Source: Conchocele bisecta (Eukaryota > Mollusca > Bivalvia > Lucinida > Thyasiridae). Taken from it: a stretch of 64,000 nt of DNA. Every line of letters begins with the position of its first letter. The first letter of the stretch is position 1. The notes beneath the pieces are model-generated. The model saw nothing but the letters and a program-made list of their open reading frames with translations. It searched no databases and was not told the origin of the DNA. Positions 13,736 to 43,284 of this stretch are shown one piece after another. The translations under genes were made by a program, and so were the position numbers. The stretch covers positions 42,959,331-43,023,330 of the forward strand of contig CM055265.1 in NCBI GenBank assembly GCA_029237695.1, given 5' to 3'.

Positions 13736-14518
13736 TGCTCCGCTGCGAGCTTTGTTGCGAGCATAATGGTGATCATAAGTATCGGGTGGTGCGCTTGGCA
13801 ATATGTTAAAGTGATGAGACTTGTTAGAATAGTTAAATTACTAATTTTGAAAAAAATGAACTGCGACGAACTTCTCGATCAGCTAATGGAAGAAACCTCA
13901 ACTCCGACTGCCAACATTCTGAAAGATAATGAAACATCAACTCCGACAGAGCAATCGGAATCAACTCCAACTCCAACGGGAGTTGGTATTGGGTTGAGTG
14001 CAACGACTCCGAATGAAAATGCGGCGCGACGAGAGCGGCTAGCTGCGCTGGTTGCTGGGGGACAATCGGAGCATTATCTCGGTAGGCGTCTCTCAGTTTT
14101 TCAGGTGGATAAGATGTCAGATGCGGAGATCGATAAAATGTATGCGCGATACGAATCCAAATTGGGAGCGGAGATGACAAAAACTCTCGGATCGGCGGCT
14201 ATTCATTTGTACGCAACCGCCGTTAGTATACTTCTCCCTATACCAAACACCGCGGGGTTGATTGATGATCTAGAGACTGACCCTTTTATAGGACACACTC
14301 TTAGAACGGCGTGCTGCTCAATTTATCACAAGTTTGGAATGTACTTAGCTCCACTAACAACCGCGTTGACCACGGGTAAACACTGTCAATTTGGACATAT
14401 ATGCCCACGAACTATAAGCCCTGAAAATGATGACACAAGACACACCCACGAGAGTGACGGAGTTGAACCAGATTGCTCCAACACAATCGAACCAGATAAT
14501 TACTCCGCCACTGGATGA
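13721..14518 (+). CDS. conserved Polinton protein, hydrophobic N-terminus optional, unknown function
   Basis: A 265-residue frame. An in-frame ATG at 13856 (MNCDELLDQL) directly follows a copy of the AT-rich motif, and I favour it; that protein would be about 220 residues. The upstream extension encodes a membrane helix (SFVASIMVIISIGWCAW) and is also open in element 2, so it may be a longer isoform or a separate small protein. The middle is Thr/Pro-rich and carries a palindrome (13967-13986). The C-terminal half (DAEIDKMYARYESKLGAEMT then LYATAVSILLPI) is helical with Cys/His residues near the end. The end overlaps the next gene by 92 bp in another frame. No function recognised. Confidence 0.7.
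   Translation: MLTIFCSAASFVASIMVIISIGWCAWQYVKVMRLVRIVKLLILKKMNCDELLDQLMEETSTPTANILKDNETSTPTEQSESTPTPTGVGIGLSATTPNENAARRERLAALVAGGQSEHYLGRRLSVFQVDKMSDAEIDKMYARYESKLGAEMTKTLGSAAIHLYATAVSILLPIPNTAGLIDDLETDPFIGHTLRTACCSIYHKFGMYLAPLTTALTTGKHCQFGHICPRTISPENDDTRHTHESDGVEPDCSNTIEPDNYSATG
13967..13986. repeat. palindromic cassette CCAACTCCAACGGGAGTTGG
   Basis: Followed by TATTGGGT. The same core with its right flank (ACTCCAACGGGAGTTGGTAT then TGGGT) occurs in element 2 at 42938-42962. There it sits in a different gene (the homologue of 14427-14939), not in the homologue of this gene. Confidence 0.85.
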
Positions 14519-14939
14519 CATACCGCATATAAAAAATCCCAAAAGACAGGCAGCTGGGCGGGCGGCGGCTGCCACCCGAAAAGTTAAACAAGATAAAATA
14601 CTCGCCGAGCTTCGAGAGGCTAAACAGTCGTTGCAATCGGGGACGGAGACAGCAAAACATCTGAAGACAGAGTTTAGTACAACAACACACCCAATTCACG
14701 AATTGGAAGCACACTCAACACCCAATCGAGGTTGGGCGAATCCGATTGAACCCAAATTCGTGAATTGGAGTTGGGTTGTTGGTGGTGGTCTGGCAGTTGT
14801 TGGTGCCCTGTGCGTGTGGAAATACCCCATATTATCGAAAAAACAACCAGCCAGTGTTCAGAAGAAAGTTACGAAACACCAATCGCGATTGGATGCGCCC
14901 CATTTAAACATTGATCGCGACCCCTTTTATATGCAATAA
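14427..14939 (+). CDS. single-pass membrane protein, Polinton-associated
   Basis: A 170-residue protein. A polar N-terminus with a basic NPKRQAAGRAAAATRK stretch and coiled helix (DKILAELREAKQSL) is followed by a variable linker built largely of palindromic DNA (14691-14768). A membrane helix follows (WSWVVGGGLAVVGALCVW), then a basic tail. It overlaps the preceding gene by 92 bp and lies 8 bp before the next ATG, so it is part of a tight operon-like run. Proteins with NPKR..AG basic boxes are common in invertebrate Polintons, possibly virion membrane or DNA-contact proteins (inference). In element 2 the linker contains different palindromes and the frame is broken near 43030. Confidence 0.7.
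   Translation: MMTQDTPTRVTELNQIAPTQSNQIITPPLDDIPHIKNPKRQAAGRAAAATRKVKQDKILAELREAKQSLQSGTETAKHLKTEFSTTTHPIHELEAHSTPNRGWANPIEPKFVNWSWVVGGGLAVVGALCVWKYPILSKKQPASVQKKVTKHQSRLDAPHLNIDRDPFYMQ
14691..14768. repeat. three palindromes in coding linker
   Basis: CCAATTCACGAATTGG (14691-14706), CCCAATCGAGGTTGGG (14721-14736) and CCAAATTCGTGAATTGG (14752-14768). The first and last are shared with element 2. The middle one is replaced there by two other palindromes (42935-42981). Confidence 0.85.
14879..14892. repeat. CCAATCGCGATTGG palindrome
   Basis: A perfect 14-bp palindrome in the coding region near the C-terminus of the 14427 gene. It is conserved in element 2 at 42795-42808 with a one-base flank change. 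Confidence 0.85.
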
Positions 14940-14947
14940 TTATAACA

Positions 14948-15181
14948 ATGGCTGAACAAGATGGTAAAATGTTAGTGAATGCGCTTTATCACGCCGTGGT
15001 GATATCGGGTTTCAGTATCGGGTATGCTCGACTATCAAAGATGGCCCTAGGAGGAACCGCTCCCAAATTGGACTTTACTGTGAGAGACGTAGGGCTCGCG
15101 ACCTTAGATGTAGCGGCCGCAGTTTGGACGCGAGATTATCTAGTTAAAGCTGGAATTCTACCAGTTAATATATGGAAATAA
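14948..15181 (+). CDS. small conserved membrane protein (77 aa)
   Basis: An intact 77-residue protein with hydrophobic N-terminal (LVNALYHAVVISGFSIGYA) and central (VGLATLDVAAAVWT) segments, consistent with one or two membrane or amphipathic helices. The stop codon is immediately followed by the ATG of the next gene. The element 2 homologue (42497-42736) has small indels. I recall very similar short proteins from other invertebrate Polintons; the function is unknown. Its small size and position within the capsid gene cluster suggest a virion or assembly component. Confidence 0.7.
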   Translation: MAEQDGKMLVNALYHAVVISGFSIGYARLSKMALGGTAPKLDFTVRDVGLATLDVAAAVWTRDYLVKAGILPVNIWK

Positions 15182-15609
15182 ATGGCTTCAATCGCAGTAA
15201 TAGTAGGTGGTGCGCTTGTAAACGCATTGGCGTTCAGCGGTAGCAACTTTATATTCTCTAAAATGAAAAGCTCGAACGTGGATGAGGAGCGTATGCGTCA
15301 TGATTTAGCTGTAGAACAACTCAATAGCGCAAAGGAAGCGTGGTCGAAAAAACGAACCGCCCATCTGGACTGAGTCCCCCCAATGAAGAGCTTCGCCGCG
15401 AAAATCACGCCGCGCAAACTTTTCAGAACGTTGAAGAAGCCAACCGCGAGTACGCGCTGGCATATCCGCACAAAAGTCTCGATCCAATGGATCCCGAGCC
15501 CCAACTTTCAGATTTCTATGTACCGTCAGAGGCCCAAAAGGACCGCGAGATCGCGTTCATCGTCGTGGGAATGGTTGTGTTTGGGCTCGTCGGCTACTAT
15601 ATAAAATAA
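15182..15609 (+). pseudogene. conserved small protein with C-terminal membrane helix, frameshifted
   Basis: The first 63 codons (15182-15373) hold a hydrophobic N-terminus (IAVIVGGALVNALAF) and a helical stretch. They stop at a TGA near 15371, next to a C-run that element 2 lacks. The remaining part continues in another frame (about 15376-15609) with a FQNVEEANRE-type helix, a YVPSEAQKDREIAF motif and a C-terminal membrane helix. In element 2 (42078-42496) the first junction is open, but another indel shifts the last residues. The family is conserved in Polintons; function unknown. Confidence 0.65.
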
Positions 15610-15659
15610 TTAATTAATTAAAAAAACATTTTTTTTTATAAATATATATATATAGAACG

Positions 15660-16025
15660 ATGTTAGTTGACGAACTTTATGACGCTATGATCGATGTAGG
15701 CTACACTGCTCAAAAACATCGTTTACCTGATGCAAAGAGTATGATTCGTCTGGCCCGAGATTCTCTCGAGACGTGGCGCGAGGACGAAAAAGCGGCCACC
15801 CTTTTCGCAAAGCGGATGTTAGATTCCTCCACCAATCCTGGGGGATTGGACTCCCAATCTCGATTGGATGAATTAGATTCCCCTCTCCTGTTCCAACCCA
15901 AACGCGATTGGGGCTGCAGCGAAACTTCCAACAAAGGGTTTATTATTAACGACGCAGTTACCGGACGAACTGGCGAGGGCATGTTGGAGATTGTCCGATA
16001 TATTAGAATACTTCGCATACGATGA
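15660..16025 (+). CDS. small helical protein (121 aa), upstream of integrase
   Basis: A 121-residue protein whose N-terminal half is helical (LVDELYDAMIDVGYTAQKH; LARDSLETWREDEKAATLF). The centre is encoded by palindromic DNA (15832-15867). Its stop overlaps the integrase start as ATGA, so translation may be coupled and the gene probably shares a transcript with the integrase. It is preceded by a TTAATTAATTA and poly-T leader. It is not recognised as a known family. The element 2 copy (41696-42038) has a shorter centre and a frame break near 41980. Confidence 0.65.
   Translation: MLVDELYDAMIDVGYTAQKHRLPDAKSMIRLARDSLETWREDEKAATLFAKRMLDSSTNPGGLDSQSRLDELDSPLLFQPKRDWGCSETSNKGFIINDAVTGRTGEGMLEIVRYIRILRIR
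15832..15867. repeat. tandem palindromes replacing another palindrome in element 2
   Basis: CCAATCCTGGGGGATTGG (15832-15849) and CCAATCTCGATTGG (15854-15867). The flanks TTAGATTCCTCC and AATTAGATTCCCC align with element 2, where the interval holds only ATCAACAATGTTG (palindrome at 41850-41860). Confidence 0.9.
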
Positions 16026-17032
16026 ACACGCGCAAACTTGATACCAAACTAACGCGCAAGCTGTCGAATACATACTATAGCCACGCGGCTACTGGAAGGG
16101 ACTCACCGGCTATCAAGAACCTCGCGGCGGCGACCAAGGTTTCAGAAAACGCTGTCAAGGAATGGCTCAAGAAGCAGGCCATCTGGCAGATCTATTTACC
16201 CGCGCCTCACAATATTCCGCGGCCGAAATTCGACGTGCCGGTGCCGAACCAAGTTCACCAAGCGGACCTCCTGTTTCTACCTCACGATCGCGTCGGTCGC
16301 AAGACGTACAAGTACGCACTGACAATCGTTGACGTAGCGAGTCGTTATAAGGGGGCTGAGCCGTTGGCCACTAAAGAGTCTAAGGAAGTGGCTGAGGCTC
16401 TTTCCCGAATATATAAGAGGAGTCCTCTCAAATGGCCGAATCTTCTCCAGGTCGATCCCGGCCGCGAGTTCAAGGGCGCGGTCTCTCATCTATTGTCTAA
16501 GCATAAAGTTTCTATCAGACGCGGCCGCGTCAACATCCACCGGGACCAGGGGATCGTGGAACGCTTCAATCGAACCCTGGCTGAGAGACTGTTCGGACAC
16601 CAATACGCTAAAGAACTTGTAGACCCTCATTCGCGATCGACCGAGTGGGTGGCCAGACTGCCCGCCGTGGTCTCCGCACTGAACGGAGAGGTGACCAGAT
16701 TGATAGGTAAGAAGCCTGTAGATGCTATCAAGTTTAAAAGGGTGACGAGCAAGCCCTCTGCCGTCTCGCGCGGGCGACCCGTTGGTTTAGAGGAGCAGCG
16801 GCTTCCATCAGATATTGACGTCCGGTACCTCTATCAACCTGGAGAGCTCGAAGGTGGCAGCCGCCGCGCGACTGATCCAGTGTGGTCTCTCAATGTATAT
16901 CATCTAGATCGATCTATTACCAAACCCGATGAGCCCGTGCTCTACTATTTGGATGATGGGCCATCTCGAGGGTTTGTTCGCGAAGAACTTCTTATAGTGC
17001 CTTCTGACACCCAGCTACCCCCGGATCGTTAG
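16022..17032 (+). CDS. Polinton integrase (retroviral-type DDE, rve family)
   Basis: An intact 336-residue integrase. The N-terminal helix-turn-helix-like region (about residues 30-52) is followed by the rve core, with D82 (VHQADLLF), D145 (LQVDPGREF) and E180 (GIVERFNRTL) as the catalytic triad. D145 and E180 are separated by about 34 residues, as expected for DD35E enzymes. The C-terminal ~100 residues form a beta-rich region typical of Polinton integrases. It would cut and join the AG...CT element ends and create the 5-bp target duplications seen here. The start overlaps the upstream stop (ATGA), and the end overlaps the convergent polymerase stop by 4 bp. Confidence 0.96.
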   Translation: MNTRKLDTKLTRKLSNTYYSHAATGRDSPAIKNLAAATKVSENAVKEWLKKQAIWQIYLPAPHNIPRPKFDVPVPNQVHQADLLFLPHDRVGRKTYKYALTIVDVASRYKGAEPLATKESKEVAEALSRIYKRSPLKWPNLLQVDPGREFKGAVSHLLSKHKVSIRRGRVNIHRDQGIVERFNRTLAERLFGHQYAKELVDPHSRSTEWVARLPAVVSALNGEVTRLIGKKPVDAIKFKRVTSKPSAVSRGRPVGLEEQRLPSDIDVRYLYQPGELEGGSRRATDPVWSLNVYHLDRSITKPDEPVLYYLDDGPSRGFVREELLIVPSDTQLPPDR

Positions 17033-20000
17033 AGATGTTCTGTATGTATTCCGTCTGGTAACACGCGTCTTTTATCGTAGTATGCCGAGAGTCCTAATTT
17101 TTGTTGACAGTACGTTTTCATAACGCCGTCTTTCATTTTAAATCCTCTATTTTGCGCTACATCATAATGTGTTTTCCATCTTCTGTAGTTTCACTTAGTA
17201 CTCGTTTATATCTATCCCAATTTAAATTGTTAGTTCTCTTGGACATTCCTTTCGCAGAGTTTTTATTAATTTGTTCCAAATTATCTTTAGAATTAATTTT
17301 TTCTACGAAATAACACTTACTAGATAACGCTATCGCCCTATCTCCGCTGAATTCCATTTTGAAAAGTCCTGGCTCTCTTTCGCTCCATTTATCCCAAGCC
17401 AACCATTTATTTTTTTCTTTTTCAAACTCGTCTAGTAAGTTAGGTCTAATCAATTCCTCTATCGTTTTTCCACTAACTCCTATATACATACTATCTGTAT
17501 CCATCTGTATTAATTCATTCAAAAGTCCTTCTCTTTTTACGTATTTGTCTAGAAATTCGTAGTAAAATTCCAACATTCTCAATTTAGCTAGTTGATAAAC
17601 CGCTATTCCACAGTGGAAGGGGCTCTTTACTGCACACCGGGTGGGGTTTTTCGGGAAGATATTTCGTACGCATCTCCTATCTCTTCCAAATCATCAAAGA
17701 ATGCAGATCTTAACGCTTTGTCAACACAGGTTTCGTCTTGTGTATATGTCGTATTTAAATGTCTCTCTTTTTGCCTCTATCATTTTTCCACAACACGAAT
17801 TGCCTAATAATTTCATTATATCCGCTACTGGTTTCTTATTTGGTTCTACATCGCCTGTTCGTCTTGCGGCTGTAACTTCTTTTGCGAACCATTCGAAGGG
17901 TTTACCACTAATATAATCTATAACACGATGAACTCCAGTTATTTCTAGGCCGTGTTTTAAATACCATTTCAACAGTGGCGCGTACAGCAGTACTTTAGTG
18001 GCCGACATAGATCCCACCAATTTTCTTCCGTTTCCTCTAGTTCGGCCAGTATCATTTAAATATTTTAACATGTGCGCGGGAACTTCATCAACCTCTACTT
18101 CTCTGTTTATAAAAAGTGGAGACATTTCAGAAAACTTATCTTTTAAGTTGTGTGGAACTTCTATATCCACCTCCACAAACCCAAACCAGTCTCCAGATAA
18201 AACTCTTTTACAATTTTTTTTTAATAAGTTTAGGGTTATGTGGGGAAACTATATGATGTATAGTTTCTTTTCCACATGGCATATCTTTATTTAACGTAGA
18301 TAAATATAACGCGTTTTGCATCGTACCCAAAACAGCCTTGCAAGGTTTGGAACCTACTCTAATATTTGAAACACCGGCTTCTGCATAGCGTGTAAATACT
18401 ATTGATGGACCGCCAACTAGAGCGTCTTTCATCATTTCGTATGTTTCTTCTTTTGGTGCATATAGAGCCCCCTCCGGTATAACCACCTTTATAGATTTTT
18501 GTTCTTTAATGGTTCCTCTCAATAAATATTGTATAGCCACACCCGGTAGTGTTACCGCATCTTTGAAAATATCCACACCTCTGTGTTTATAAAATTCACA
18601 CATTTTTTCTACCGCTTCTAGGAACGGTTCTACATCTAAATCGTTATAATATTTCAACCAATCTCTGAAAGTTTTCATATTATTTTCTTCGAAAATTCTG
18701 CGACATTTACTTAATTCAGTTTCATCTAGTAACATTTTCCCCGATAGTTTGGAATACCAATTCTCTATATCAGGCAGTCCTGGGTAATCAAGTTTGTCTG
18801 GAGAATCGCACCAGTCGTAAGGAAAGAAAGATTTCTGTCCTTTGCAGTCGTAGGCTTTTATCCAACTATCGTAACTTACACCCGGTCCTAGGTAAAGTAT
18901 TACATCAAGAAATCTAAACTCCGGAGTAAATAGAAATATTGTTGCGTTTGCCCGTTTTCCGACCATTACTTTCTTTGTTGTTGCAGATAGTTCACCTACT
19001 AAATATTTCTTTATTAAGTTTATATCGTACTTACTGCTGTTAAAACCTATAACCGGTACTTGCTCTATCCACTGTTCGATCTTAGCGATTTGGTTTTTAC
19101 GTAAATGTTCTGTATTAAACCCATATCTTGACCACACTTCTTCTCTTATAGCTTTTCCCCTGACTTTCAAATCTTCTACAAATTTTTCTATAAGTTTTGC
19201 AGGATCTTTATCACAAATATGAGTTACTGTTCCTGAGAAATTATCTCCTATACTAACACTTACCGGAACGTGCTCAGCTTCGTACTCTAAATTATTACCT
19301 AGCGTTTTAAGTAATTCTTTAGAATTAGGTGGGTTGAGATATGCCTCAAAATCGTATACTATCTGATAAAGAGTAGTGTCGCAACCGATCTTTATATCTT
19401 TACCCGTTCTTTGGAATTCGCATTCCCACATAACTACTAGGTTGAATTCTTTGCTTTTTCTAATAAATGTATCTCTTCTCATAGTGGATGCGCGTTCTTC
19501 TTTTCTATGCTTTGCATGAATCTCACACCCGTGCCAGTAACAGCCGTGATATTGATATACGGTATTGGTTTCTGGACAGTATCCATCTACTGGAGCTCCT
19601 AAAATCCATCTTTCACCCCCGTGTCCACACTGTTCGTGGTGAATGTGAATTCCCTCCCGCTTTTCCCACAGATTGTATCCAATCGATCGCGCCATAACTG
19701 TTAGAACCTTTTGGGTAGAACGCTTTCTCGAACGACGAACGCGGGCGCTCTAAATAATTACCATCACATACTATTTTTGTCTCACCTTTCATACATGTTG
19801 GTCCGTGTCTCTTCATATTACTCGCTTTTGTGAATCTCTGTTTACAATTATTGCAGGCGTAAGTTTTAGATAGGTTTTTAAGGTTTTTTTATCAGAAATG
19901 CGTGATTATTAAACAGTCCTATTGTCATTGGTTTATTACCTATTTCATTATAGTGTGCTGGTACCTTTTTCAACCACCATACGTTATATTTGGTCGGTTG

Positions 20001-21050
20001 ATATACTTCTATACCGATTTTAAAAACCTCTTCAACCTTTTTTAGATCTTTAAAAGGAATTGGTGAAACAACATTTCTACCGAAATATTGCTTACTAAGT
20101 TCTTCCGCTTTTTCTGTACATCTGTCAGGTCTGATCTTTTTATCAAGGTGCATAGCTAGACACCTGAACAGACAAAGATCGTCATTATACTTATCTAAAG
20201 AATACATACATTTTCTATTCCTCAACCATTCTGGAAGTTCTCCTCCTGCTGCTTCTTTGGATTGTAGTCCCACATCTATTCCCCTCCCCTACTACCCTGT
20301 ATTAGCTTTACAAAAACCTCTACCCATCTTACAAACTTCCACTTTGTATTTGGTCTGTCTATTTTATCGGACATTATTCGTGTTTGCTCCTTATCTGACA
20401 GCCATTTTTTAACGGTTTTCATTGATGATAGTGGTTCGCTACCACCGAGATTTTTGTGAAATATTAGAGTTTTAGGTTTTCCATTTTTAGTTTCCTCCAT
20501 ATGTTTCTAGCTTGTAAGAATATGAATATCTCAAATAAAAATTGGTTGTTAGATACGGAGCGAGTTTATCGGACATGCGTTCGGACTCGTTGATGTCAAT
20601 GTTTTTACGAAAGGATAATGTAACATACCCGTCTTCCATTTTCTACCTTTTCCAATGTTTCATCGTGAGCACCCAATATTTCTTCACCTTTTTCCACTAT
20701 CGCACGAACTATAGATTTTTTCTTATTATTGGTATTTGGTCACCTGTGCGTCTAATTTGAGACAAATTATTGGTGCTTGAAGGTAATTCTTTAGAATTAA
20801 TTACACTAGCCCTTAACCCCGCAATACTTTCTTTTTTAATTCTGTTACCAACTTCCTCTGCTTTGGATATATCATTAAAGGCTCCTCGTTTGTGGGCGCG
20901 GGTAAACCGCTTCATAAACGCCTCATTCTTTGTGGAGTTTATCAGCTTTGTCAACCCCCTTACTCTCAACCGTTTACTATAAGTAATCCCTAGAGATTCG
21001 GCTTCTCTTCTCAAACTTTCTATTTCTGCTCTAGTTTCTGACGTTATCAT
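17029..21050 (-). pseudogene. protein-primed family B DNA polymerase (pPolB), frameshifted
   Basis: The coding region is about 4 kb, expected product roughly 1,300 residues, broken into 20709-21050, 20276-20500, 19878-20273, 18208-19816, 17721-18176 and 17157-17582. In order: a helical N-terminus; a C2H2-like finger (CDNCKQKFTKASNMKRHGPTC region, about 19800-19865); and a nuclease-like domain (HIHHEQCGHGGERW, VDGYCPE, GCYWHGC). Exonuclease motifs are DFEA and GFNSSKYD. Polymerase motif B is KLLGNSCCGK (about 17780-17815) and motif C is DTDS (17490-17501). Motif A is scrambled here by two compensating homopolymer indels near 18315-18335, which remove the expected Asp, while element 2 keeps YDANALY. 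I start at ATG 21050 because the sequence upstream is the shared promoter-like motif. Confidence 0.93.
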
Positions 21051-21075
21051 ATTTTCTGTAATATACTTTTGTATA

Positions 21076-21113
21076 ACCTATGCAATTTATCTGTTCAATT
21101 GGTCGTGAAAACA
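21076..21113 (-). promoter_or_regulatory. recurrent putative promoter motif upstream of polymerase
   Basis: On the minus strand this reads TTTTCACGACCAATTGAACA then GATAAATTGCATAGG, 26-63 bases before the polymerase ATG. With the divergent copy at 21119-21147 it forms a bidirectional intergenic region of about 115 bp between the polymerase and zinc-finger genes. Confidence 0.55.
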
Positions 21114-21118
21114 TTTAG

Positions 21119-21147
21119 TTTTTTTTCACGTCCAATTGAATATAAAC
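21119..21147 (+). promoter_or_regulatory. recurrent putative promoter motif upstream of zinc-finger gene
   Basis: TTTTTTTTCACGTCCAATTG followed by AATATAAAC, 20 bases before the ATG at 21167. It shares the CACGTCCAATTGAA core with the copies at 4096 and 21076. Confidence 0.5.
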
Positions 21148-21166
21148 ATATACATATACATATACA

Positions 21167-21496
21167 ATGGAGTGTGAGACTTGTTGTTATAAAACGTTTA
21201 CGCGTAAAGACTATCTACGAAGGCATCTAGCGAGACGTAGAAAGTTTCCTTGTGCCCCCCCACAATTTCAATGCCCCAGATGCCCTTGTAAATTCGTTAG
21301 TGCCCAAACTCTTTGTAGACATAAGCAACTACGCTGTCCTGTGGCTAAAGGTGAACGTGGTAGACTAGAGCTGGTAGAATTAGTTGCTGATCTACGGAAT
21401 CAATTAGCTATATCGGAGGAGGAAAATATGGTTTGGAATATAGACTATTGCGCGAGGACGCATTTAAATCGGAAACTTATTAGAAGAAATTCATAA
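21167..21496 (+). CDS. C2H2 zinc-finger protein with C-terminal coiled coil
   Basis: A 109-residue protein. The first finger resembles CETC-YKTFTRKDYLRRH, and the second is C-x2-C-x12-H-x4-C (FQCPRCPCKFVSAQTLCRH). A predicted helical coiled coil follows (RLELVELVADLRNQLA). It is probably a nucleic-acid-binding regulator encoded beside the element end. The last ~25 residues differ from element 2 (36299-36598) because of a frameshift, so the C-terminus is probably altered here. The gene abuts the terminal inverted repeat, and in element 2 most of it lies inside the inverted repeat. Confidence 0.8.
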   Translation: MECETCCYKTFTRKDYLRRHLARRRKFPCAPPQFQCPRCPCKFVSAQTLCRHKQLRCPVAKGERGRLELVELVADLRNQLAISEEENMVWNIDYCARTHLNRKLIRRNS

Positions 21497-21673
21497 ATTT
21501 GCTGTCGGAAAAACATGATGTATTTATGACACCAATTTTAGATTTTTCGTGGTTGGTGGGAGACAATTTCCTCGTTAACCAATTTTTGATTTTTCGGGGG
21601 TGGTGGGAGTAGTATAAAGGTTTATAAATGATGCCACCACAGGTGGTATCATTTTGACTCCCTTTATACTACT
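21495..21673 (-). repeat. element 1 right terminal inverted repeat
   Basis: The reverse complement of 3934-4110. The final 66 bp (21608-21673) repeat the nested hairpin described for the left end. Confidence 0.93.
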
Positions 21674-21840
21674 CAATATGTCAACATAACGTGATATTTT
21701 ATCTCAACAAGTCGACATAACGTGATATTTATCTCAACATGGTGACTTTTTTTAACGTGATAAGTTAACACAACATGTCGACATAATGTGATATTTTATC
21801 TCAACATGTCGACATAGTTTCGCGTCGTCATCTCAACAGC
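21669..21840. repeat. minisatellite of about 31 bp, right half of element 1 target
   Basis: After the CAATA duplication, units such as ATGTCGACATAATGTGATAT followed by TTTATCTCAAC repeat about five times. The array continues the one at 3790-3933. Confidence 0.85.
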
Positions 21841-22530
21841 AAGTATATGCCACCATAGTTTTGCAATGTTTATATATATAACCTTATAAGGTGGCAAGTT
21901 TACACAAAACTGACAGCAGTGTTAGTGTCCATGTATATTATGTATGTAAGGCCATAGAAATTTAGTTAGAAAACTCCAGCCTTAGGAGATTTATCTGCCC
22001 ATCCAAATTGTGTGGGGGGGGGGGTATTTTCATTTTTCGTACTGACTGTGTAGTATCAGATTGATTTTGAAATGTTTTGAAAATAGATACATTTACAAAT
22101 AAATAACAATTTGGCAATTTATTTCAATGATGGGTATGGTCCCTACTAAAAATCTGCAAATTATTTTTCTATAGCATGAACTAAAGTTCATAAATACATG
22201 TATCATGTATCCTGCATATTTTACAACCTTTTTGTATTTTTCCTGTCTTCTGCAGATTTTCAACCCACAGACGCATTGACCGCCTATACTGGGACACCTG
22301 GTTTGCGAGCATTTACCAGTTGTGGAGAGACAAATAGACAATAAAAGTTACAGAAAATACTGAGAAGGTATGATTTTGTTACTATACTGGAAAATAAAAT
22401 ATCTGTTGTGTGAATTTAGGCCAGAAAACATAATTCCGCCGTGTCAGAAAAATATATGTGTGTCGGAGCTTTTTATGGGAATTTAGTGTTACCCTTGTCC
22501 GTTCCGTCCTTCCATCCGCCCGTCACCTAC
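21841..22530. other. intergenic, nothing recognised
   Basis: AT-rich sequence with a G-run near 22012-22023. No gene, terminal repeat or RNA recognised. Confidence 0.5.
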
Positions 22531-23810
22531 CTTGTAGCTCGTAAAACTTTTAAACCATACTAGCTACAAACTTTAAACTTAGTATGTGTACATGTAGCTT
22601 CCTTATGATGAGTCGATTTTTTATTCGACCCCCAGGTCATGGATTATCTTCCACTTGTTTTACTTAGAATTTCCCAATTTTGCATTGTAATTCGTAAAAC
22701 TTTTAAATTGTACTAGCTACAGACCTGAAACTTGGTATGTAGCTTCCTTATGATGAGTAGATGTGCAAAAGTTTACTTCTATTTTTTATTCGACCCCCGG
22801 GTCATGCATTATCTCCCCCTTTCTGACTTAGAAGTTGGCAAGTTTGCATTGTAACTCGTAAAACTTTTCAATCGTAATAGCTACAGACCTGAAACTTGGT
22901 ATGCAGTTTCCTTATGATGAATAGATGTGCGAAGCTTATTTCAATTTTTTATTCGACCCCCGGGTCATGGATTATCTCCCACTTTTTTTACTTATAATTT
23001 CCCAATTTTGCATTGGAACTCGTAAAACTTTTAAACGTACTAGCTACAGACCTGAAACTTGGTATGTAGCTTCCTTATGATGAGTAGATGTGCAAAGCTT
23101 ATTTAAATTTTTGCTTCGACCCCCAGGTCATGGATTATCTCACACTTTTTTACTTAGAATTTCCCAATTTTGCATTGTAACTCGTAAATGTTTTAAAGGT
23201 ACATGCCCACTCAGTAGGCACACAATGTTCTTTATAGAAATTAAATATGTGTGTCACTATTCTACCAGTTCTCTAAAATTACGAGTGCCCACTATTGAGA
23301 TATAATCTTTTACTGGTAGTAATATTTATTTTACTGATCGTGACTCGCGGTGGTATCGGGCTATTTTCATATACAAATGAGGCATGATATGTTTTAATTA
23401 TGTAATATACTAATTAAATGCGTCGCCTGAAAAAATCATATTTTCCACAGATTATAAAGTATGATCATTGCACATCAAAACATAAATAGTAATGTCCGTT
23501 GACATTTTAAGGACACACGGTTATCGCCCTTGATATCAGTGTTAAAATTTACATCTGATATAAAATGTATAATATTGCCAATCAATTTGTGAATAGTTAT
23601 GAATGAATGTATTTTTTCCAGAAAATGTATCAGATGATTTCTCTGATATAAAGAACATTTTGTGCCTAATGAACGGGCATGTACCTTCAAACTGTACTAG
23701 CTACATACTTGAAACTTGGTATGTCGCTTCATTATGATTCATTATCTCCCCCTTTTCGACTTATAATTTTGCCTTGTAGCTTGTAAAACTTTTGAAACCG
23801 TAATAATATA
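22531..23810. repeat. tandem array of about 160-bp units, interrupted by a MITE
   Basis: Five to six degenerate units begin around GTAACTCGTAAAACTTTTAA, followed by CTAGCTACAGACCTGAAACT and TTATTCGACCCCCGGGTCAT. Unit starts lie near 22531, 22688, 22851, 23017 and 23176. The last unit is split at its TTTTAAA by the MITE at 23193-23690 and resumes with ACTGTACTAGCTACATACTT. Confidence 0.85.
23193..23690. mobile_element. TTAA-flanked MITE, copy 2
   Basis: Same family as 3101-3600 with ends TTAAAGGTACATGCCCACTC and GGGCATGTACCTTCAA. Its insertion inside a tandem repeat unit shows the empty site, supporting a TTAA target. Confidence 0.88.
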
Positions 23811-24179
23811 ATTTCACACTTGCCTTGTGTATTATCAACGCGATATATGGGGCATCCGTGTTCTATGGCACATTTTCTAGTTGTAAATATTAAAAGTTTG
23901 CCAGAGTTTATCAATGCTGTTATACATGTAACACTTATAGGATTATTTTAATATTGCATTACATCATACTTGTGCACAGATTCAACACTCCATGTGTGGT
24001 TGGTTGGGAGCACGCGGCGGGTAATTCAACGATCGATATTCATCCTTACCGGAATTCCGGCTGCAGACCTGGTTTGGCCCTCACATACGTCTTTGGCACC
24101 AGATCAGATTATTCTAATTTCAGGGCTGAATGTGTTTTTTCTCAATGCAAATATTCTGTTCTGATTTTGGGATTTTCCC

Positions 24180-24285
24180 CCCAATGCAGCAGGTTAAAAC
24201 GGGATTGAAGCCATTTGCCCGGCCTTACATGACCTTACCTGTTGATAGGACGTTAAATGCTAATAAACAAACAAACATCAACACT
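24180..24285 (+). repeat. SINE-like interspersed repeat tail, copy 1
   Basis: CCAATGCAGCAGGTTAAAAC, GCCCGGCCTTACATGACCTT, CGTTAAATGCTAATAAACA. It matches 28797-28900 closely and, in reverse, 2395-2480. Confidence 0.7.
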
Positions 24286-30954: not shown

Positions 30955-30955
30955 G

Positions 30956-31005
<50 letters not shown>

Positions 31006-31164: not shown

Positions 31165-31265
31165 AGCAAGTATATATACAAACATATATATACACATATA
31201 TACATACATGAATATATATGCATATATATATACATATATACATATATATATACACAAATATATCG
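31165..31265. repeat. TATACA/TATATA microsatellite
   Basis: Alternating TATATACATA words over about 100 bp. Confidence 0.9.
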
Positions 31266-36012: not shown

Positions 36013-36529
36013 AGTAGTATAAAGGGAGTCAAAATGATACCACCTACGGTGGCATCATTTCCACCCCTTTATACTACTCCCACCACCCCCGAAAAAGTAC
36101 AAATTGGTTAACGAGGAAATTGTTCTCACCACCCCGAAAAATCCAAAATTGGTGTCATAAATACATCATGTTGTTTTCACGTCCAATTGAACAGATAAAA
36201 CGATAGTCTTAAAAAGGATTTATTTTTATCTCGTTGTCATAAATACATCATGTTTTTTCGACAGTAAATTTATGAATTTCTTCTAATAAGTTTCCGATTT
36301 AAAATGCGTCCTCACGCAATAGTTTATATTCCAACACCCCATTTTTCTCCTCCAATATAGCTAATTTATTTCGCAGATCAGCAACTAATTCTACCAGCTC
36401 TAGTCTACCACGTTCACCTGTAGCCACCTGACAGTGTAGTTGCTTATGTCTACAAAGAGTTTGGGCACTAATGAATTTACAAGGGCATCTGGGGCATTGA
36501 AATTGCGGGGGGACACAAGGAATTTTTCT
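36013..36529 (+). repeat. element 2 left terminal inverted repeat, about 517 bp
   Basis: Matches the reverse complement of 53765-54281 to the end of ACACAAGGAATTTTTCT. It contains the 66-bp end hairpin (36013-36078), two copies of TCATAAATACATCATGTT and the promoter-like motif. It also covers the 3' two-thirds of the zinc-finger gene. Confidence 0.92.
36177..36203 (+). promoter_or_regulatory. promoter-like motif inside left inverted repeat
   Basis: TTTTCACGTCCAATTGAACA followed by GATAAAA. Here it has no gene directly downstream in its orientation; the block appears to have been duplicated into this end together with TCATAAATACATCATGTT flanks. Confidence 0.45.
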
Positions 36530-36598
36530 ACGTCTCGCTAGATGCCTTCGTAGATATTCTTTACGCGTAAACGTCTTACAACAAGTCTCACACTCCAT
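36299..36598 (-). CDS. C2H2 zinc-finger protein, element 2 copy
   Basis: A 99-residue protein from the ATG at 36598. It has the first finger CETCCKTFTRKEYLRRH, the second finger FQCPRCPCKFISAQTLCRH, then a coiled coil ending LEYKLLREDAF. It lacks the extra Tyr codon seen in element 1 and has an uninterrupted C-terminus, so this copy probably shows the native end. Codons after about residue 24 lie in the inverted repeat and are duplicated at the other end of the element. Confidence 0.8.
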   Translation of the reverse strand: MECETCCKTFTRKEYLRRHLARRRKIPCVPPQFQCPRCPCKFISAQTLCRHKQLHCQVATGERGRLELVELVADLRNKLAILEEKNGVLEYKLLREDAF

Positions 36599-36614
36599 TA
36601 TATATGTATATATG

Positions 36615-36684
36615 TTTATATTCAATTAGAAGTGAAAAAAACATAATGTTTTCAAGACCAATTGAACAGATAAATTTCATAGGT
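36615..36684. promoter_or_regulatory. divergent promoter-like pair between zinc-finger and polymerase genes
   Basis: TTTTTTCACTTCTAATTGAA on the minus strand (36621-36640) and TTTTCAAGACCAATTGAACA on the plus strand (36650-36669), each pointing to its gene. The first is mutated from CACGTCC to CACTTCT. Confidence 0.5.
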
Positions 36685-36711
36685 GTTATACAAAAGTATA
36701 TTACAGAAAAT

Positions 36712-39700
36712 ATGATAACGTCAGAAACTAGAGCAGAAATAGAAAGTTTGAGAAGAGAAGCCGAATCTCTAGGGATTACTTATAGTAAACGGTTGAGAGT
36801 TAGGGGGTTGACAAATCTTATAAACTCCACAAAGAATGAGGCGTTTATGAAGCGGTTTACCCGCGCCCACAAACGAGGAGCCTTTAAAGATATATCCAAA
36901 GCGGAGGAAGTAGGTAACAGAATTCAAAAAGAAAGTATTGCGGGGTTAAGGGCTAGTGTAATCAAACCTTCAAGCACAAATAATTTGTCCCAAATTAGAC
37001 GCCAAAATAATAATAAGAAAAAATCTATCGTTAGCGCGATAGTGGAAAAAGGTGAAGAAATATTGGGGCTCACGATGAAACATTGGAAAAGGTAGAAAAT
37101 GGAAGACGGGTAGTTACATTATCCTTTCGTAAAAACATTAACATTAACGAGTCTGAACGCATGTCTGATAAACTCGCTCCGTATCTAACAACCAATTTTT
37201 ATTTGAGATATTCATATTCTTACAAGCTAGAACATATGGAGGAAATTAAAAATGGAAAACCTAAAACTATAATATTTCACAAAAATCTCGGTGGTAGCGA
37301 ACCACTATCATCAATGAAACCCGTTAAAAAATGGCTGTCAGATAAGGAGCAAACACGAATAATGTCCGATAAAATAGACAGACCAAATACAAAGTGGAAG
37401 TTTGTAAGATGGGTAGAGGTTTTTGTAAAGCTAATACAGGGTAGTAGGGGAATAGATTTGGGACTACAATCCAAAGAAGCAGCAGGAGGAGAACTTCCAG
37501 AATGGTTGAGGAATAGAAAAGGTATGTATTCTTTAAGATAAGTATAATGACGATCTTTGTCTGTTCAGGTGTCTAGCTATGCACCTTGATAAAAAGATCA
37601 GACCTGACAGATGTACAGAAAAGGCGAAAGAACTTAGTAAGCAATATTTCGGTAGTAATGTGGTTTCACCAATTTCTTTTTCAGATCTGAAAAAGGTTGA
37701 AGAGTTTTTTTAAAATCGGTATAGAAGTATATCAACCCACTGAATGTAATGTATGGTGGTTGAAAAAGGTACCAGCGCACTATAAGGCAATAGGTAATAA
37801 ACCAATGACAATAGGACTGTTTAATAATCACGCATTTCTGATAAAAAACCTTAAAAACCTATCTAAAATTTACGCCTGCGATAATTGCAAGCAGAAATTC
37901 ACGAAAGCGAGTAATATGAAGAGACACGGACCAACATGTATGAGAGGTGAGACAAAAGTAATATGTGATGGTAATTATTTAGAGCGCCCGCGTTCGTCGT
38001 TCGAGAAAGCGTTTTACCCAAAAGGTTCTAACAGTTATGGGGTGATCGATTGGATGTATTCTGTGGAAAAGCGGGAGGGAATTCACATTCACCACGAACA
38101 GTGCGGACACGGAGGTGAAAGATGGATTTTAGGAGCTCCGGTAGATGGATACTGTCCAGAAACCAATACCGTATATCAATATCACGGCTGTTACTGGCAC
38201 GGGTGTGAGATTCATGCAAAGCATAGAAAAGAAGAAAAACGCGCATCCACTATGAGAAGAGATAAAGTTATTAGAAAAAGCAAAGAATTCAACCTAGTAG
38301 TTATGTGGGAATGCGAATTCCAAAGAACGGGTAAAGATATAAAGATCGGTTGTGACACTACTCTTTATCCATATCAGATAGTATACGATTTTGAGGCGTA
38401 TCTCCAGCCAGAAGTTGAAACTACCGGTAATAGTTTAGAGTACGAAGCTGAGCACGTTCCGGCAAGCGTTAGTATAGGAGATAATTTCTCAGGAACAGTA
38501 ACTCATATTTGTGATAAAGATCCCGCAAAACTTATAGAAAAATTCGTAGAAGATTTGAAAGTCAGGGGAAAAGTTATAAGAGAAGAAGTGTGGTCAAGAT
38601 ATAGGTTTAATACAGAACATTTACGTAAAAACCAAATCGCCAAGATCGAACAGTGGATAGAGCAAGTACCGGTTATAGGTTTTAACAGCAGTAAGTACGA
38701 TATAAACTTAATAAAGAAATACCTAGTAGGCGAACTGGCATCAACAACAAAGAAAGTAATGGTCGGAAAACGTGCAAACGCAACAATATTTCTATTTACT
38801 CCAGAGTTTAGATTTCTTGATGTAATACTTTATCTAGGACCTGGTGTAAGTTACGATAGTTGGATAAAAGCCTACGAATGCAAAGGACAGAAATCTTTCT
38901 TTCCTTATGAGTGGTTCGATTCTCCAGACAAACTGGATTACCCAGGACTACCGGATATAGAGAATTGGTATTCCAAACTATCTGGGAAAATGTTAATAGA
39001 CGAAACAGAATTAAGTAAATGTCGTAGAATTTTCGAAGAAAATAATATGAAAACTTTCAGAGATTGGTTGAAATATTATAACGATTTAGATGTAGCACCG
39101 TTCCTAGAAGCGGTGGAAAAAATGTGTGAATTTTATAAACACAGAGGTGTGGATATTTTCAAAGATGCGGTAACACTACCTGGAGTAGCTATACAATATT
39201 TATTGAGAGGAACCATTAAAGAACAAAAATCTTCAAAGACGATTATACCGGAGGATGCTCTATATGCACCAAAAGAAGAAACATACGAAATGATGAAGGA
39301 CGCTCTAGTTGGCGGTCCATCAATAGTATTTACACGATATGCAGAAGCTGGTGTTTCAAATATTAGATCTAATTCCTCAAATGAAATTAACAAACCTTGC
39401 AAGGCTGTTTTGGGGTACGATGCAAACGCGTTATATTTATCTACGTTAAATAAAGAGATGCCGTGTGGGAGAGAAACTATACACCATATAGATACCCCAC
39501 ATAACCCTAAATTTATTAAAAAGTTTTGTAAAAGAGTTTTATCTGGAGACTGGTTTGGGTTTGCGGAGGTGGATATAGAAGTTCCACACAACTTAAAACA
39601 TAAGTTTTCTGAAATGTCCCCAATATTTATAAACAGAGAAGTAGAGGTTGATGAAGTTCCCACACACATGTTAAAATATTTGGAAGATACTGGAAGAACT

Positions 39701-40688
39701 AGAGGAAATGGAAGAAAATTGGTGGGATCTATGACCGCCACTAAAGTATTGCTGTACGCGCCACTGTTGAAATTGTATTTAAAACACGGCCTAGAAATAA
39801 CTGGAGTTCATCGTGTTATAGATTATATTAGTGGAAAACCATTCGAATGGTTCGCAAAAGAAGTTACAGCCACAAGACGAACAGCGATGTAGAACCAAAT
39901 AAGAAACCAGTAGCCGACATAATGAAATTATTAGGAAACTCGTGTTGTGGAAAAATGATAGAGGCAACGGAGAGACATTTAAATACGACATATACACAAA
40001 ACGAAACCTGTGTTGACAAAGCATTAAGATCTGCATTCTTTGACGATTTGGAAGAGATAGGAGATGCGTACGAAATATCTTCAAGAAAACCCAGGTGTGC
40101 GGTAAAGAGACCATTCCATTGTGGAATAGCGGTTTATCAACTAGCTAAATTGAGAATGTTGGAATTTTACTACGAATTTCTAGATAAATACGTAAAAAGA
40201 GAAGACTTTGAATTAATACAGATAGATACAGATAGTATGTATATAGGAGTTAGTGGAAAAACGATAGAGGAATTGATTAGACCTAACTTACTAAGACGAG
40301 TTTTGAAAAAGAAAAAAATAAATGGTTGGCTTGGGATAAATGGAGCGAAAGAGAGCCAGGACTTTTCAAAATGGAATTCAGCGGAGATAGGGCGATAGCG
40401 TTATCTAGTAAGTGTTATTTTATAGAAAAATTTAATTCTATTAATAAAAACTCTGCGAAAGGAATGTCCAAGAGAACTAACAATTTAAATTGGGATAGAT
40501 ATAAACGAGTACTAAGTGAAACTACAGAAGATGGAAAACACATTATAGATGTAGCACAAAATAGAGGATTTAAAATGAAAGACGGCGTTATGAAAACGTA
40601 CTGTCAACAAAAATTAGGACTCTCGGCATACTACGATAAAAGACGCGTGTTACCAGACGGAATACATACAGAACCTCTATTGATTTAA
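36712..40688 (+). pseudogene. protein-primed family B DNA polymerase, element 2 copy, frameshifted
   Basis: The largest open part is 37697-39892 (731 codons). It contains the C2H2-like finger, the nuclease-like GCYWHGCEIH block, exonuclease DFEA and GFNSSKYD motifs, and an intact motif A (YDANALYLSTL). Motif B (KLLGNSCCGK) lies in the next frame (39847-40398), and motif C (DTDS) near 40227. Breaks lie near 37090, 37540, 37700, 39885 (single G instead of GG in element 1) and 40300. The end overlaps the convergent integrase by 4 bp, as in element 1. Confidence 0.93.
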
Positions 40689-41699
40689 GTAATCGGGGGT
40701 AACTGGGTGTCAGAAGGCACCGCAAGAAGTTCTTCGCGAACAAAACCGCGAGATGGCCCATCAGCCAAATAATAGAGCACGGGCTCATCGGGTTTGGTTA
40801 ATGAGCGATCCAGATGATATACATTCATTGACCACACGGGATCAGTCGCGCGGCGGCTGCCACCTTCAAGCTCTCCCGGTTGATAGAGGTACCGGACGTC
40901 AATATCTGATGGAAGCCGTTGCTCCTCTAAACCAACGGGTCGCCCGCGCGAGACGGCAGAAGGCTCGCTCGTCACCCTTTTAAACTTGATAGCATCTACA
41001 GGCTTCTTACCTATCAATCTGGTCACCTCTCCGTTCAGTGCGGAGACCACGGCGGGCAGTCTGGCCACCCACCACTCGGTCGATCGCGAATGAGGGTCTA
41101 CAAGTTCTTTGGCGTATTGGTGTCCGAACAGTCTCTCAGCCAGGGTTCGATTGAAGCGCTCCACGATCCCCTGGTCCCGGTGGATATTGACGCGGCGCGT
41201 CTGATAGAAAACTTCGTGCTTAGACAATAGATGAGAGACCGCGCCCATGAACTCGCGGCCGGGATCGACCTGGAGAAGATTCGGCCATTTGAGAGGACTC
41301 CTCTTATATATTAAGGGAAAGAGCCTCAGCCACTTCCTTAGACTCTTTAGTGGCCAACGGCTCAGCCCCCTTATAACGACTCGCTACGTCAACGATTGTC
41401 AGTGCGTACTTGTACGTCTTGCGACCGACGCGATCGTGAGGTAGAAACAGGAGGTCCGCTTGGTGAACTTGGTTCGGCACCGGCACGTCGAATTTCGGCC
41501 GCGGAATATTGTGAGGCGCGGGTAAATAGATCTGCCAGATGGCCTGCTTCTTGAGCCATTCCTTGACAGCGTTTTCTAAAACCTTGGTCGCCGCCGCGAG
41601 GTTCTTGATGGCCGTGAGTCCCTTCCAGTAGCCGCGTGGGCTATAGTATGTATTCGACAGCTTGCGCGTTAGTTTGGTATCAAGTTTGCGCGTGTTCAT
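40685..41699 (-). pseudogene. Polinton integrase, element 2 copy, frameshifted
   Basis: The N-terminal frame 41304-41699 holds the HTH-like region and the first catalytic Asp (HQADLLF). The C-terminal frame 40685-41248 holds the catalytic Glu (GIVERFNRTL). The second Asp region (VDPGREF) is encoded between them near 41255-41275, in the interval with the frame breaks. The last residues differ from element 1 because the overlap with the polymerase stop has shifted. Confidence 0.93.
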
Positions 41700-42038
41700 C
41701 GTATGCGAAGTATTCTAATATATCGGACAATCTCCAACATGCCCTCGCCAGTTCGTCCGGTAACTGCGTCGTTAATAATAAACCTTTGTTGGAAGTTTCG
41801 CTGCAGCCCCAATCGCGTTTGGGTTGGAACAGGAGAGGGGAATCTAATTCAACATTGTTGATGGAGGAATCTAACATCCGCTTTGCGAAAAGGGTGGCCT
41901 CTTTTTCGTCCTGGCGCCACGTCTCGAGAGAATCTCGGGCCAGACGAATCATACTCTTTGCACCAGGTAAACGATGTTTTTTTTTTGGGCAGTGTAGCCT
42001 ACATCGATCATAGCGTCATAAAGTTCGTCAACTAACAT
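41696..42038 (-). pseudogene. small protein upstream of integrase, element 2 copy
   Basis: Homologue of 15660-16025. The frame 41680-41952 is open, but the first ~28 codons (to ATG 42038) are in another frame, broken near the T-run at 41978-41987. The centre holds CAACATTGTTG (41850-41860) instead of the two palindromes of element 1, making the protein shorter. Confidence 0.6.
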
Positions 42039-42077
42039 CGTTCTATATATATATATATAGTTTTTTTAATTAATTAA

Positions 42078-42496
42078 TTATTTTATATAGTAGCCGACGA
42101 GCCAACCACAACCATTCCCACGACGATGAACGCGATCTCGCGGTCCTTTTGGGCCTCTGATGGTACATAGAAATCTGAAAGTTGGGGCTCGGGATCCATT
42201 GGATCGAGACTTTGTGCGGATATGCCAGCGCCGTATCGCGGTTGGCTTCTTCAACGTTCTGAAAAGTTTTGCGCGGCGTGATTTTCGCGGCGAGCTCTTC
42301 ATTGACCCAGTCCAGATGGGCGGTTCGTTTTTTCGACCACGCTTCCTTTGCGCTATTGAGTTGTTCTACAGCTAAATCATGGCGCTTACGCTCCTCATCC
42401 ACGTTCGAGCTTTTCATTTTAGAGAATATAAAGTTGCTACCGCGAATGCCAATGCGTTTACAAGCGCACCACCTACTATTACTGCGATTGAAGCCA
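42078..42496 (-). pseudogene. conserved small membrane protein, element 2 copy
   Basis: Homologue of 15182-15609. The junction that is a stop in element 1 reads through here, but indels near 42250 and 42110 shift the frame so that the terminal membrane helix is altered. Confidence 0.6.
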
Positions 42497-42736
42497 TTTA
42501 TTTCCATATATTAACTGGTAGAATTCCAGCTTTAACTAGATAATCTCGGGTCCAAACTGCGGCCGCTACATCTAAGGTCGCGAGCCCTACGTCTCTCACA
42601 GTAAAGTCCAATTTGGGAGCGGTTTCCTCCTAGGGCCATCTTTGATAGTCGAGCATTACCCGATACTGAAACCGATATCACCACGGGGCGTGATTTAAAG
42701 CGCATTCACTAACATTTTACCATCTTGTTCAGCCAT
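42497..42736 (-). pseudogene. 77-residue membrane protein, element 2 copy
   Basis: Homologue of 14948-15181 with several small indels near 42630-42700. Start and stop positions and the abutting stop/ATG with the next gene are preserved. Confidence 0.6.
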
Positions 42737-42744
42737 TGTTATAA

Positions 42745-43284
42745 TTATTGCATATAAAAGGGGGTCGCGATCAATGTTTAAATGGGGCGCCATTCCAATC
42801 GCGATTGGGTGTTTCGTAACTTTCTTCTGAACACTGGCTGGTTGTTTTTTCGGGTATTTCCAAACGCACAGGGCACCAACAACTGCCAGACTACCACCAA
42901 CAAACCAACTCCAATTCGTGAATTGGGGTTCAGTCAAACTCCAACGGGAGTTGGTATTGGGTGACAAATTCAAAGAATTTGAGTGTGCTTCCAATTCGTG
43001 AATTGGGGGTGTTGTTGTACTCAACTCTGTCTTCAGATGTTTTGCTGTCTCCGTCCCGATTGCAACCCCAATCTCGATTGGAGTTTAGCCTCTCGAAGCT
43101 CGGCGAGTATTTTATCTTGTTTAACTTTTCGGGTGGCAGCCGCCGCCCGCCCGAGCTGCCTGTCTTTTGGGATTTTTTTATATGCGGTTATATCATCCAG
43201 TGGCGGAGTAACACTCTGGTTCGATTGTGTTGGAGCAATCTGGTTCAACTCCGTCACTCTCGTGGGTGTGTCTTGTGTCATCAT
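42745..43284 (-). pseudogene. single-pass membrane protein, element 2 copy
   Basis: Homologue of 14427-14939. Frames 43033-43284 and 42695-43024 are split near 43030. The linker carries palindromes CCCCAATCTCGATTGGAG (43067-43084), CCAATTCGTGAATTGG (42991-43006 and 42911-42926), CAAATTCAAAGAATTTG (42965-42981) and CAAACTCCAACGGGAGTTGG (42935-42954). Two of these are absent from the element 1 copy of this gene. Confidence 0.65.
42911..43006. repeat. cluster of four palindromic cassettes
   Basis: Units at 42911-42926, 42935-42954, 42965-42981 and 42991-43006. The second matches a cassette in another gene of element 1 (13967-13995). The third, with flank TGGGTGACAAATTC, matches the start of the fibre genes (49813-49838 and, in reverse, 7890-7918). 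Confidence 0.85.

Follow-up and report, generated by a model that had tools for sequence, protein, structure and literature searches.

Short palindromes are copied between genes and sites of a Polinton family in Conchocele bisecta

In this study, we report that short palindromes have been copied between genes and between sites of one Polinton family in the bivalve Conchocele bisecta. The starting material was a stretch of 64,000 nucleotides (assembly GCA_029237695.1, contig CM055265.1, positions 42,959,331 to 43,023,330 of the forward strand; hereafter the window), which holds two Polintons in opposite orientation, E1 and E2, delimited approximately by self-alignment (Table 1). The palindromes have arms of 5-8 bp and loops of 0-6 bp, and are mainly of the CCAAT..ATTGG, AATTC..GAATT and CAAC..GTTG types. 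From the anatomy of the differences between copies we infer template switching guided by the palindrome arms. The origin and spread of palindromes in genes is an old question, for which few systems offer comparable empty and filled sites; here, very many copies of one element in one genome make gains, losses, inversions and joints countable.

Palindromic words at non-homologous sites and their abundance

Further copies were fetched as genomic stretches (L-numbers), and word mapping was performed on 42 sequences, namely E1, E2 and the 40 fetched stretches L006-L045. Positions of sites are given in window coordinates. The word CAATCGCGATTG was found at seven sites, near E1 positions 10112, 11390, 13965, 14510, 14880 and 15899 and about 50 bp before 13802 (L007 and L012); a further cluster at 15855 in L012 corresponds by its context to the 15899 site. 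CCAATCGAGATTGG was located at 10132, 10241, 14624 and 15854, with one unmapped occurrence in L008, and AATTCTTTAGAATT at 12938-12948 (five copies), 19313 and 20785, with two unmapped occurrences in L011. Three sites were found for CATCAACAATGTTGA (10137, 14884 and 15830) and two for CCAACTCCCGTTGGAGTTGG; AATTCTTTGAATT occurred at two sites and once unmapped, one of these occurrences being in the repeat-rich open reading frame (ORF) at 7892 with the flank GTCACCCAAT. The word CCAATTCACGAATTGG formed a single cluster at 14691-14753. For the words named first, the sites are spread over different ORFs and both strands. In E1, the peptide read from CCAATCGCGATTGG is PIAIG at 10111 and QSRLD at 14879, so the duplication is not of a single peptide, and selection for one peptide motif was rejected on the ground that one word has two readings.

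An earlier note, made from the letters of the window, had proposed that palindromes disperse between unrelated genes of the two elements, and such dispersal was seen directly in the other copies. Both units that it listed as carrying their flanks into unrelated genes were recovered, AACTCCAACGGGAGTTGGTATTGGGT in two genes and TGGGTGACAAATTC at 42958, at 49814 and, on the minus strand, at 7900. The palindromes that were looked up stood where the note had placed them, CCAATCTCGATTGG starting at 43068 rather than 43069, and its five differences between E1 and E2 were all visible in the alignments. The density comparison with shuffled sequence and outside DNA, which it had asked for, placed the elements far above the controls. 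CCAATn2-6ATTGG palindromes numbered 7 in E1 (0.12 expected), 8 in E2 (0.20 expected) and 1 in the 27.9 kb outside the elements (0.17 expected), the expectations for this type being obtained by first-order Markov resampling, with which dinucleotide shuffles agree. Counts in E1, E2 and outside were 4, 3 and 0 for AATTCn2-6GAATT (0.24-0.34 expected) and 8, 6 and 0 for TAATTn2-8AATTA (0.5-1.3 expected). Palindromes with arms of at least 6 and loops of at most 3 numbered 30 and 32 in the element cores (6100-17700 and 40000-51700), against 11.6 and 11.2 expected. The CCAAT words are mostly inside ORFs.

In the 1.89-Gb genome of the species, CCAATCGCGATTGG occurred 6047 times, as against once for its reversed control, which has the same composition and is also a palindrome; CCAATTCACGAATTGG occurred 5437 times (2723 and 2714 on the two strands), as against none for its control. 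Twenty stretches of 10 kb were fetched around the first listed CCAATCGCGATTGG places on contig C1 (50 of the 6047 places were listed), and all 20 align to the Polinton. A 411-bp piece of the element gave 3065 first-look candidates in the same genome, 40 of which were scored. Over the 9.9-17 kb block, 22 sequences held 427 palindromes (arms of at least 6, loops of at most 4) against 143 expected, in a biased and partly overlapping sample, 20 of the 22 having been picked for holding one of the words. At G000:C1:19925791-19954264, eight CCAATTCACGAATTGG were observed in about 28 kb in both orientations, representing either clustered pieces of the element or an array.

Gains, losses and joints

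E1 and E2 are 94.8% identical over 17,320 aligned columns. Length differences between them were tested in the range of 9-45 bp, leaving out the diverged block at 11060-11540, the element ends and low-complexity indels. Among the 24 indels so defined, 6 had arms of at least 6 when taken with 3 bases on each side, whereas random windows of equal lengths averaged 0.65, with a maximum of 4 over 2000 draws. Arms of at least 5 were found in 7 of the 24 (2.2 expected, P 0.002), and all seven are multiples of three. Because the palindromic differences are length changes of 12-27 bp, point mutation alone is insufficient; the explanation by point mutation of one ancestral sequence, which the earlier note had named as the alternative to its proposal, was thereby ruled out in favour of insertions or replacements of whole palindromes.

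The same turnover was seen across copies. The linker at 14625-14775, between two conserved anchors, consists largely of palindromes whose combination varies by copy (39 rows, 35 of them distinct; L002, L004 and L005 are parts of L006, L008 and L009, and L007 overlaps L008). At 14879, 14 of 20 rows carry the CCAATCGCGATTGG type (two of them imperfect), 4 carry CATCAACAATGTTGA between the same outer arms and 2 carry neither. Near 10930 a palindrome is present in 12 of 19 copies (two imperfect) and absent from 7. Rarer states are CCAATCTCGATTGG at 10241, found in 1 of 21 rows (L021) with no palindrome in the rest, and CCAATCGCGATTGG at 14510, found in 2 of 39 rows (L007 and L008, which are one locus). 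In L031, CCAATTCACGAATTGG lies inside CCAACTCC|CGTTGGAGTTGG, a palindrome nested in a palindrome, adding 15 bp relative to the sister copies L033, L034, L039 and L042; the same word stands a few tens of bases from its nested copy. At the N-terminus of the ATPase (the 12960 site; 12973-12987 in E1), 18 of 19 copies have CCAATTCACGATTGG and the diverged copy L012 has CAAACAAAGTTTG. Within the polymerase gene, the 15-bp difference at 18348 was considered as a palindrome gain and rejected, as it is not palindromic; 44 aligned homologues share the longer state of E2, so that it reads as a loss in E1.

The polymerase gene also holds a palindromic insertion. At 19313, AATTCTTTAGAATTA is present in 7 of 19 rows and the site is empty in 12, including E2; the rows include 16 of the 20 stretches fetched for this site and, from the 20 ten-kb stretches, L008 alone. 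E1 is here five residues longer than E2 and two to five columns longer than each of the 44 aligned homologues (the top 39 among 705 matches plus five more), which marks the insertion as derived. In L051, the closest of the empty copies, AATTC is already present at this spot (half arm CAAATTCTGGG), and substitutions cluster beside the insertion. The same 17 bases recur at 20785, again read as NSKEL. A candidate donor was seen in the N-terminal A32 word of other copies, some 6 kb away in E1 coordinates: AATTCTAAAGAATT is present in five copies in the stretch taken to be the N-terminal part of the A32 gene.

The joints carry further marks. A half arm was present at the target beforehand in three cases, AATTC at 19313, ATTGGA at 10154 and AATTAA at the A32 N-terminus, and the blocks exchanged between the 10130 and 14879 sites share GAAACACCAATC at the left joint and TTGG at the right. 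The centre of the palindrome occurs in both orientations at 14718 (TTT in 16 copies, AAA in 2), and also at 14755 and 15854, which are taken up below. Inverted copies or loop inversions with short joint homology, the features of quasi-palindrome mutations, were thus found, the joints being read by eye.

Explanations for the spread

We consider it rather probable that arm-guided template switching during Polinton replication copies the palindromes, and that those in frame are kept in tolerant linkers. Polintons are expected to replicate by protein-primed, strand-displacing DNA synthesis. Hairpins exposed during such synthesis would stall the polymerase; a 3' end finishing in a palindrome arm could then pair with a complementary arm elsewhere, either in another palindrome or in a pre-existing half arm, and the polymerase would copy that other palindrome before returning. 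Since an arm can pair with any equal arm in either orientation, palindromic words would multiply as by-products. Selection would retain the words that land in frame in tolerant linkers, so that linkers would become palindrome arrays, and a dedicated enzyme would not be required. This suggests a simple route to longer protein linkers, with new in-frame sequence, in a virus-like element. A bolder proposition, which we regard as possible though doubtful, is that the 14-16-bp hairpins are self-spreading DNA replicators without an enzyme of their own, which exploit the protein-primed replication of the Polinton and have built flexible protein linkers; if true, they would rank with the smallest dispersing genetic elements known and would supply new coding sequence.

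Several observations weigh against template switching followed by in-frame retention, or qualify the counts above. The stretches L006-L025 were picked for holding one of the words and are therefore biased, and two of them (L007 and L008) overlap as one locus. As regards density, palindromes with arms of at least 7 also exceed expectation in other blocks (11 against 3.6 at 20000-32000, including the end of E1; 5 against 2.5 at 1-6000; 8 against 3.6 at 52200-64000, including the end of E2). With generic palindromes in some excess outside the elements too, specificity to the elements is confined to the CCAAT, AATTC and TAATT families. The earlier note had proposed to examine whether gains and losses are clean insertions that preserve the frame; the seven palindromic E1/E2 indels preserve it, and at 14510 the palindrome lies within a longer differing segment and no clean single insertion is seen. 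As 12 of the 17 remaining, non-palindromic E1/E2 indels are also multiples of three, frame keeping is not special to palindromes, and linker lengths between exact anchors in 28 copies fall into frame classes of 16, 7 and 5, with 12 of 28 off the main class; we take the main class to be the coding frame and the others to reflect decay. Difference from E1 at seven chosen sites was 14.7% in loops, 6.9% in flanks and 4.4% in arms, and 5.0% over the whole of 9900-17000, so selection for hairpins is not evident, and strong conservation of the arms was rejected on this comparison. At 14755 the reversal of the centre (GT in 17 copies, AC in 10) is accompanied by a change in one flanking base, and at 15854 (TC in E1 and L021, GA in L023) three copies are comparable, one of them with a broken arm. 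Joint homology is short and was assessed visually rather than statistically, at about eight events, and the 10241 singleton has little of it, fitting a discrete mobile unit equally. Finally, no CCAATn0-8ATTGG was found in L001, a distant 4.6-kb contig from the genome-contig search, and the linkers of two distant relatives of the 14427 protein appeared by eye to lack the peptides.

Small palindromic repeats are often assumed to move as minute mobile elements, the hairpin being cut out or copied and then inserted whole by an element-encoded or host enzyme. Consistent with such movement are the 15-bp unit at 19313, which matches the palindrome boundaries and recurs at 20785, the whole-unit singleton at 10241 and the nested palindrome of L031. 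We nevertheless regard it as unlikely. Several families and sizes move, with no constant sequence, and the moved blocks can include flank, as in the 26-bp block. A miniature inverted-repeat transposable element is defined by terminal inverted repeats with a constant target site duplication; by eye, the inspected events showed no constant duplication. The palindromes, which the earlier note called mobile, are copied, but Pfam comparison of ten E1 ORFs revealed no enzyme dedicated to them, and no transposase-like match besides the Polinton integrase. With all 20 stretches around CCAATCGCGATTGG being Polintons, nothing shows spread outside them. The anatomy fits template switching better than dedicated enzyme-driven mobility.

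Protein binding sites for replication, packaging or regulation, turning over under selection, would account for CCAAT and ATTGG halves with a variable centre and for thousands of sites per genome. This explanation seems improbable to us, as the gains are of whole units, some with flank, and not stepwise, the arm sequences are several and unrelated, and arms are little more conserved than flanks. We give no better a chance to homologous recombination among copies combined with tandem duplication of linker peptides, in which the palindromes would be incidental. It agrees with the many combinations of modules at 14625-14775 and with the 1374 flank-matched length differences in a redundant list, of which 420 passed as non-tandem; against it stand the same words at non-homologous sites in both orientations, the excess of palindromic indels over equal-length windows and the two readings of CCAATCGCGATTGG. 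Chance or base composition, to which the modest excess of generic palindromes outside the elements might point, is rejected by the reversed controls and the 22-sequence count together with site turnover, since shared ancestry of copies accounts for much of the genome-wide number and not for the turnover.

The two elements and the nearest known systems

The Polinton/Maverick gene set comprises a type B DNA polymerase, a retroviral-type integrase, an A32-like ATPase and a double jelly-roll capsid. E1 has this set by Pfam, with A32-type ATPase and type B DNA polymerase matches above cut-off, an integrase core match just under it (31.9 against 32.6) and a capsid-like match below it (21.3 against 24 bits). 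The terminal inverted repeats of E2 are 98.8% alike over 519 columns, and E2 has a target duplication, with no clear counterpart in E1. The two elements are separated by 69 one-base indels, which points either to decay of both or to small assembly errors. Protein searches gave 1846 matches to the E1 capsid query, with Elysia marginata among the named relatives, and Oculina patagonica was named among those to the polymerase query; relatives of the E1 capsid sought in viral contigs were not confirmed. The host DNA gave a SCAN match below cut-off.

Three further features of the elements were observed. A minus-strand ORF block (11067-11533, against 46227-46683) shows a poor E1/E2 alignment between sides that are each more than 90% alike, and may derive from exchange with another Polinton lineage. 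The repeat-rich ORF, the fibre gene of the earlier reader, contains tandem repeats of about 150 bp (6636-7711 and 50020-51103), and a tandem repeat of TGCTGAACAA type at 13613-13730 varies in length among copies. The contig L001, filed under a Diapherotrites archaeon metagenome-assembled genome, contains coding sequence for a portion of a Polinton capsid and has a further match to the element beyond it; it is likely a contamination of that genome by eukaryotic DNA.

Table 1. Coordinates of the two Polintons and of their palindromes in the window
Position	Element	Feature	Remarks
3934..21673	E1	Polinton copy	Terminal AGTAGTATAAAG inverted at both ends; self-alignment, end comparison, Pfam
10069..10084	E1	CCAATTCGTAAATTGG palindrome	Linker ahead of C-terminal hydrophobic stretch
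10111..10124	E1	CCAATCGCGATTGG palindrome	Same word at further non-homologous sites
10137..10151	E1	CATCAACAATGTTGA palindromic word	Also at 14884 site (L011, L017, L018, L024, L036, L038) and 15830 site of E2
10933..10946	E1	CCAATTGCGATTGG palindrome	
11390..11401	E1	CAATCGCGATTG nested in CCTCCAAT..ATTGGAGG	Other sequences in other copies, some palindromic
12973..12987	E1	CCAATTCACGATTGG	Near N-terminus of A32 ATPase ORF
13967..13986	E1	CCAACTCCAACGGGAGTTGG palindrome, 8-bp arms	ORF 13721; 26-bp block common with E2 42937-42962
14691..14706	E1	CCAATTCACGAATTGG palindrome	
14721..14736	E1	CCCAATCGAGGTTGGG palindrome	Different palindromes there in other copies
14755..14766	E1	AATTCGTGAATT	Also in 16 more copies; E2 and nine others have AATTCACGAATT, with a change in one flanking base
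14879..14892	E1	CCAATCGCGATTGG palindrome	
15832..15849	E1	CCAATCCTGGGGGATTGG palindrome	Absent from E2
15854..15867	E1	CCAATCTCGATTGG palindrome	Absent from E2; centre reversed in L023
17267..17283	E1	TAATTTGTTCCAAATTA palindrome	Mostly within 18-bp insertion relative to E2
19313..19327	E1	AATTCTTTAGAATTA, 15-bp in-frame insertion	DNA polymerase gene; adjoins DFEAY; peptide NSKEL
20785..20798	E1	AATTCTTTAGAATT, second site	Upstream in same reading direction; exceeds E2 by 12 bp; peptide NSKEL
36013..54281	E2	Polinton copy	Inverted relative to E1; GACCG on both flanks; self-alignment, end comparison
41850..41860	E2	CAACATTGTTG	E1 has two other palindromes there
42795..42808	E2	CCAATCGCGATTGG	
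42911..42926	E2	CCAATTCGTGAATTGG	
42937..42962	E2	Block AACTCCAACGGGAGTTGGTATTGGGT	Same in E1 ORF 13721, another gene, opposite orientation within element
42965..42981	E2	CAAATTCAAAGAATTTG	15-bp insertion relative to E1; same module and flank in repeat-rich ORF at 7892, three copies
42991..43006	E2	CCAATTCGTGAATTGG	
43068..43081	E2	CCAATCTCGATTGG	Absent from E1
44708..44722	E2	CCAATCGTGAATTGG	Counterpart of 12973 in E1
47658..47671	E2	CCAATCGCGATTGG	
47699..47714	E2	CCAATTTACGAATTGG	
49814..49827	E2	TGGGTGACAAATTC, flank of CAAATTCAAAGAATTTG module	Plus strand; repeat-rich (fibre) ORF; E1 counterpart 7900, minus strand

The nearest known systems are the Rickettsia palindromic elements (RPEs), the mitochondrial palindromes of Nematomorpha and the PARCEL repeats, none of which, by their descriptions, is this small or resides in a Polinton. 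Among the matches listed in the open-access literature, there was no earlier description of such palindromes in a Polinton, adintovirus or Maverick. RPEs are bacterial elements of about 150 bp in ten families, each with an ORF for a conserved peptide, as described in PMC10969869. As in that description, the palindromic DNA is dispersed in unrelated genes, often in frame; unlike RPEs, the units are of 12-20 bp with several arm types, reside in a virus-like element of an animal genome rather than in Rickettsia, and one word is read in more than one frame. The likeness drawn by the earlier note is thus one of style only, the units being about ten times shorter and having no single conserved sequence.

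In Nematomorpha, inverted repeats inside protein-coding mitochondrial genes are likewise gained and lost, and template switching is discussed as a possible cause (PMC6649704). Those palindromes are long (up to 284 bp) and perfect, and the account is one of gain, loss and arm conversion; the copying of one short word to other sites is a feature of the Polinton palindromes that does not appear in it. PARCEL sequences, as described in PMC2996958, share coding sequence with dyad symmetry and a suggested shuffling within genomes, and differ in being 25-residue tandem repeats with a conserved protein pattern, whereas the Polinton words have no conserved peptide; by eye, no tandem amphipathic repeat of this 25-residue type was present in the translations around the palindrome sites.

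Enrichment of palindromes in a large DNA virus is known from the hairpin rule of giant-virus mRNA ends, where about two thirds of the palindromes are described as lying between ORFs (PMC5413956), in contrast to the mostly intragenic CCAAT words. AT-rich TAATT..AATTA palindromes, in excess in the elements, were observed at 12937, 13581, 44095, 49722 and other positions; part of them may correspond to the mRNA-end hairpins of giant viruses, and others seem to be coding. A further parallel is that of quasi-palindrome mutations, which are ascribed to template switching at imperfect inverted repeats (PMC3820800, PMC5677150). In the cases described there, arm identity is extended at one repeat, whereas the Polinton palindromes also reach other sites and accumulate.

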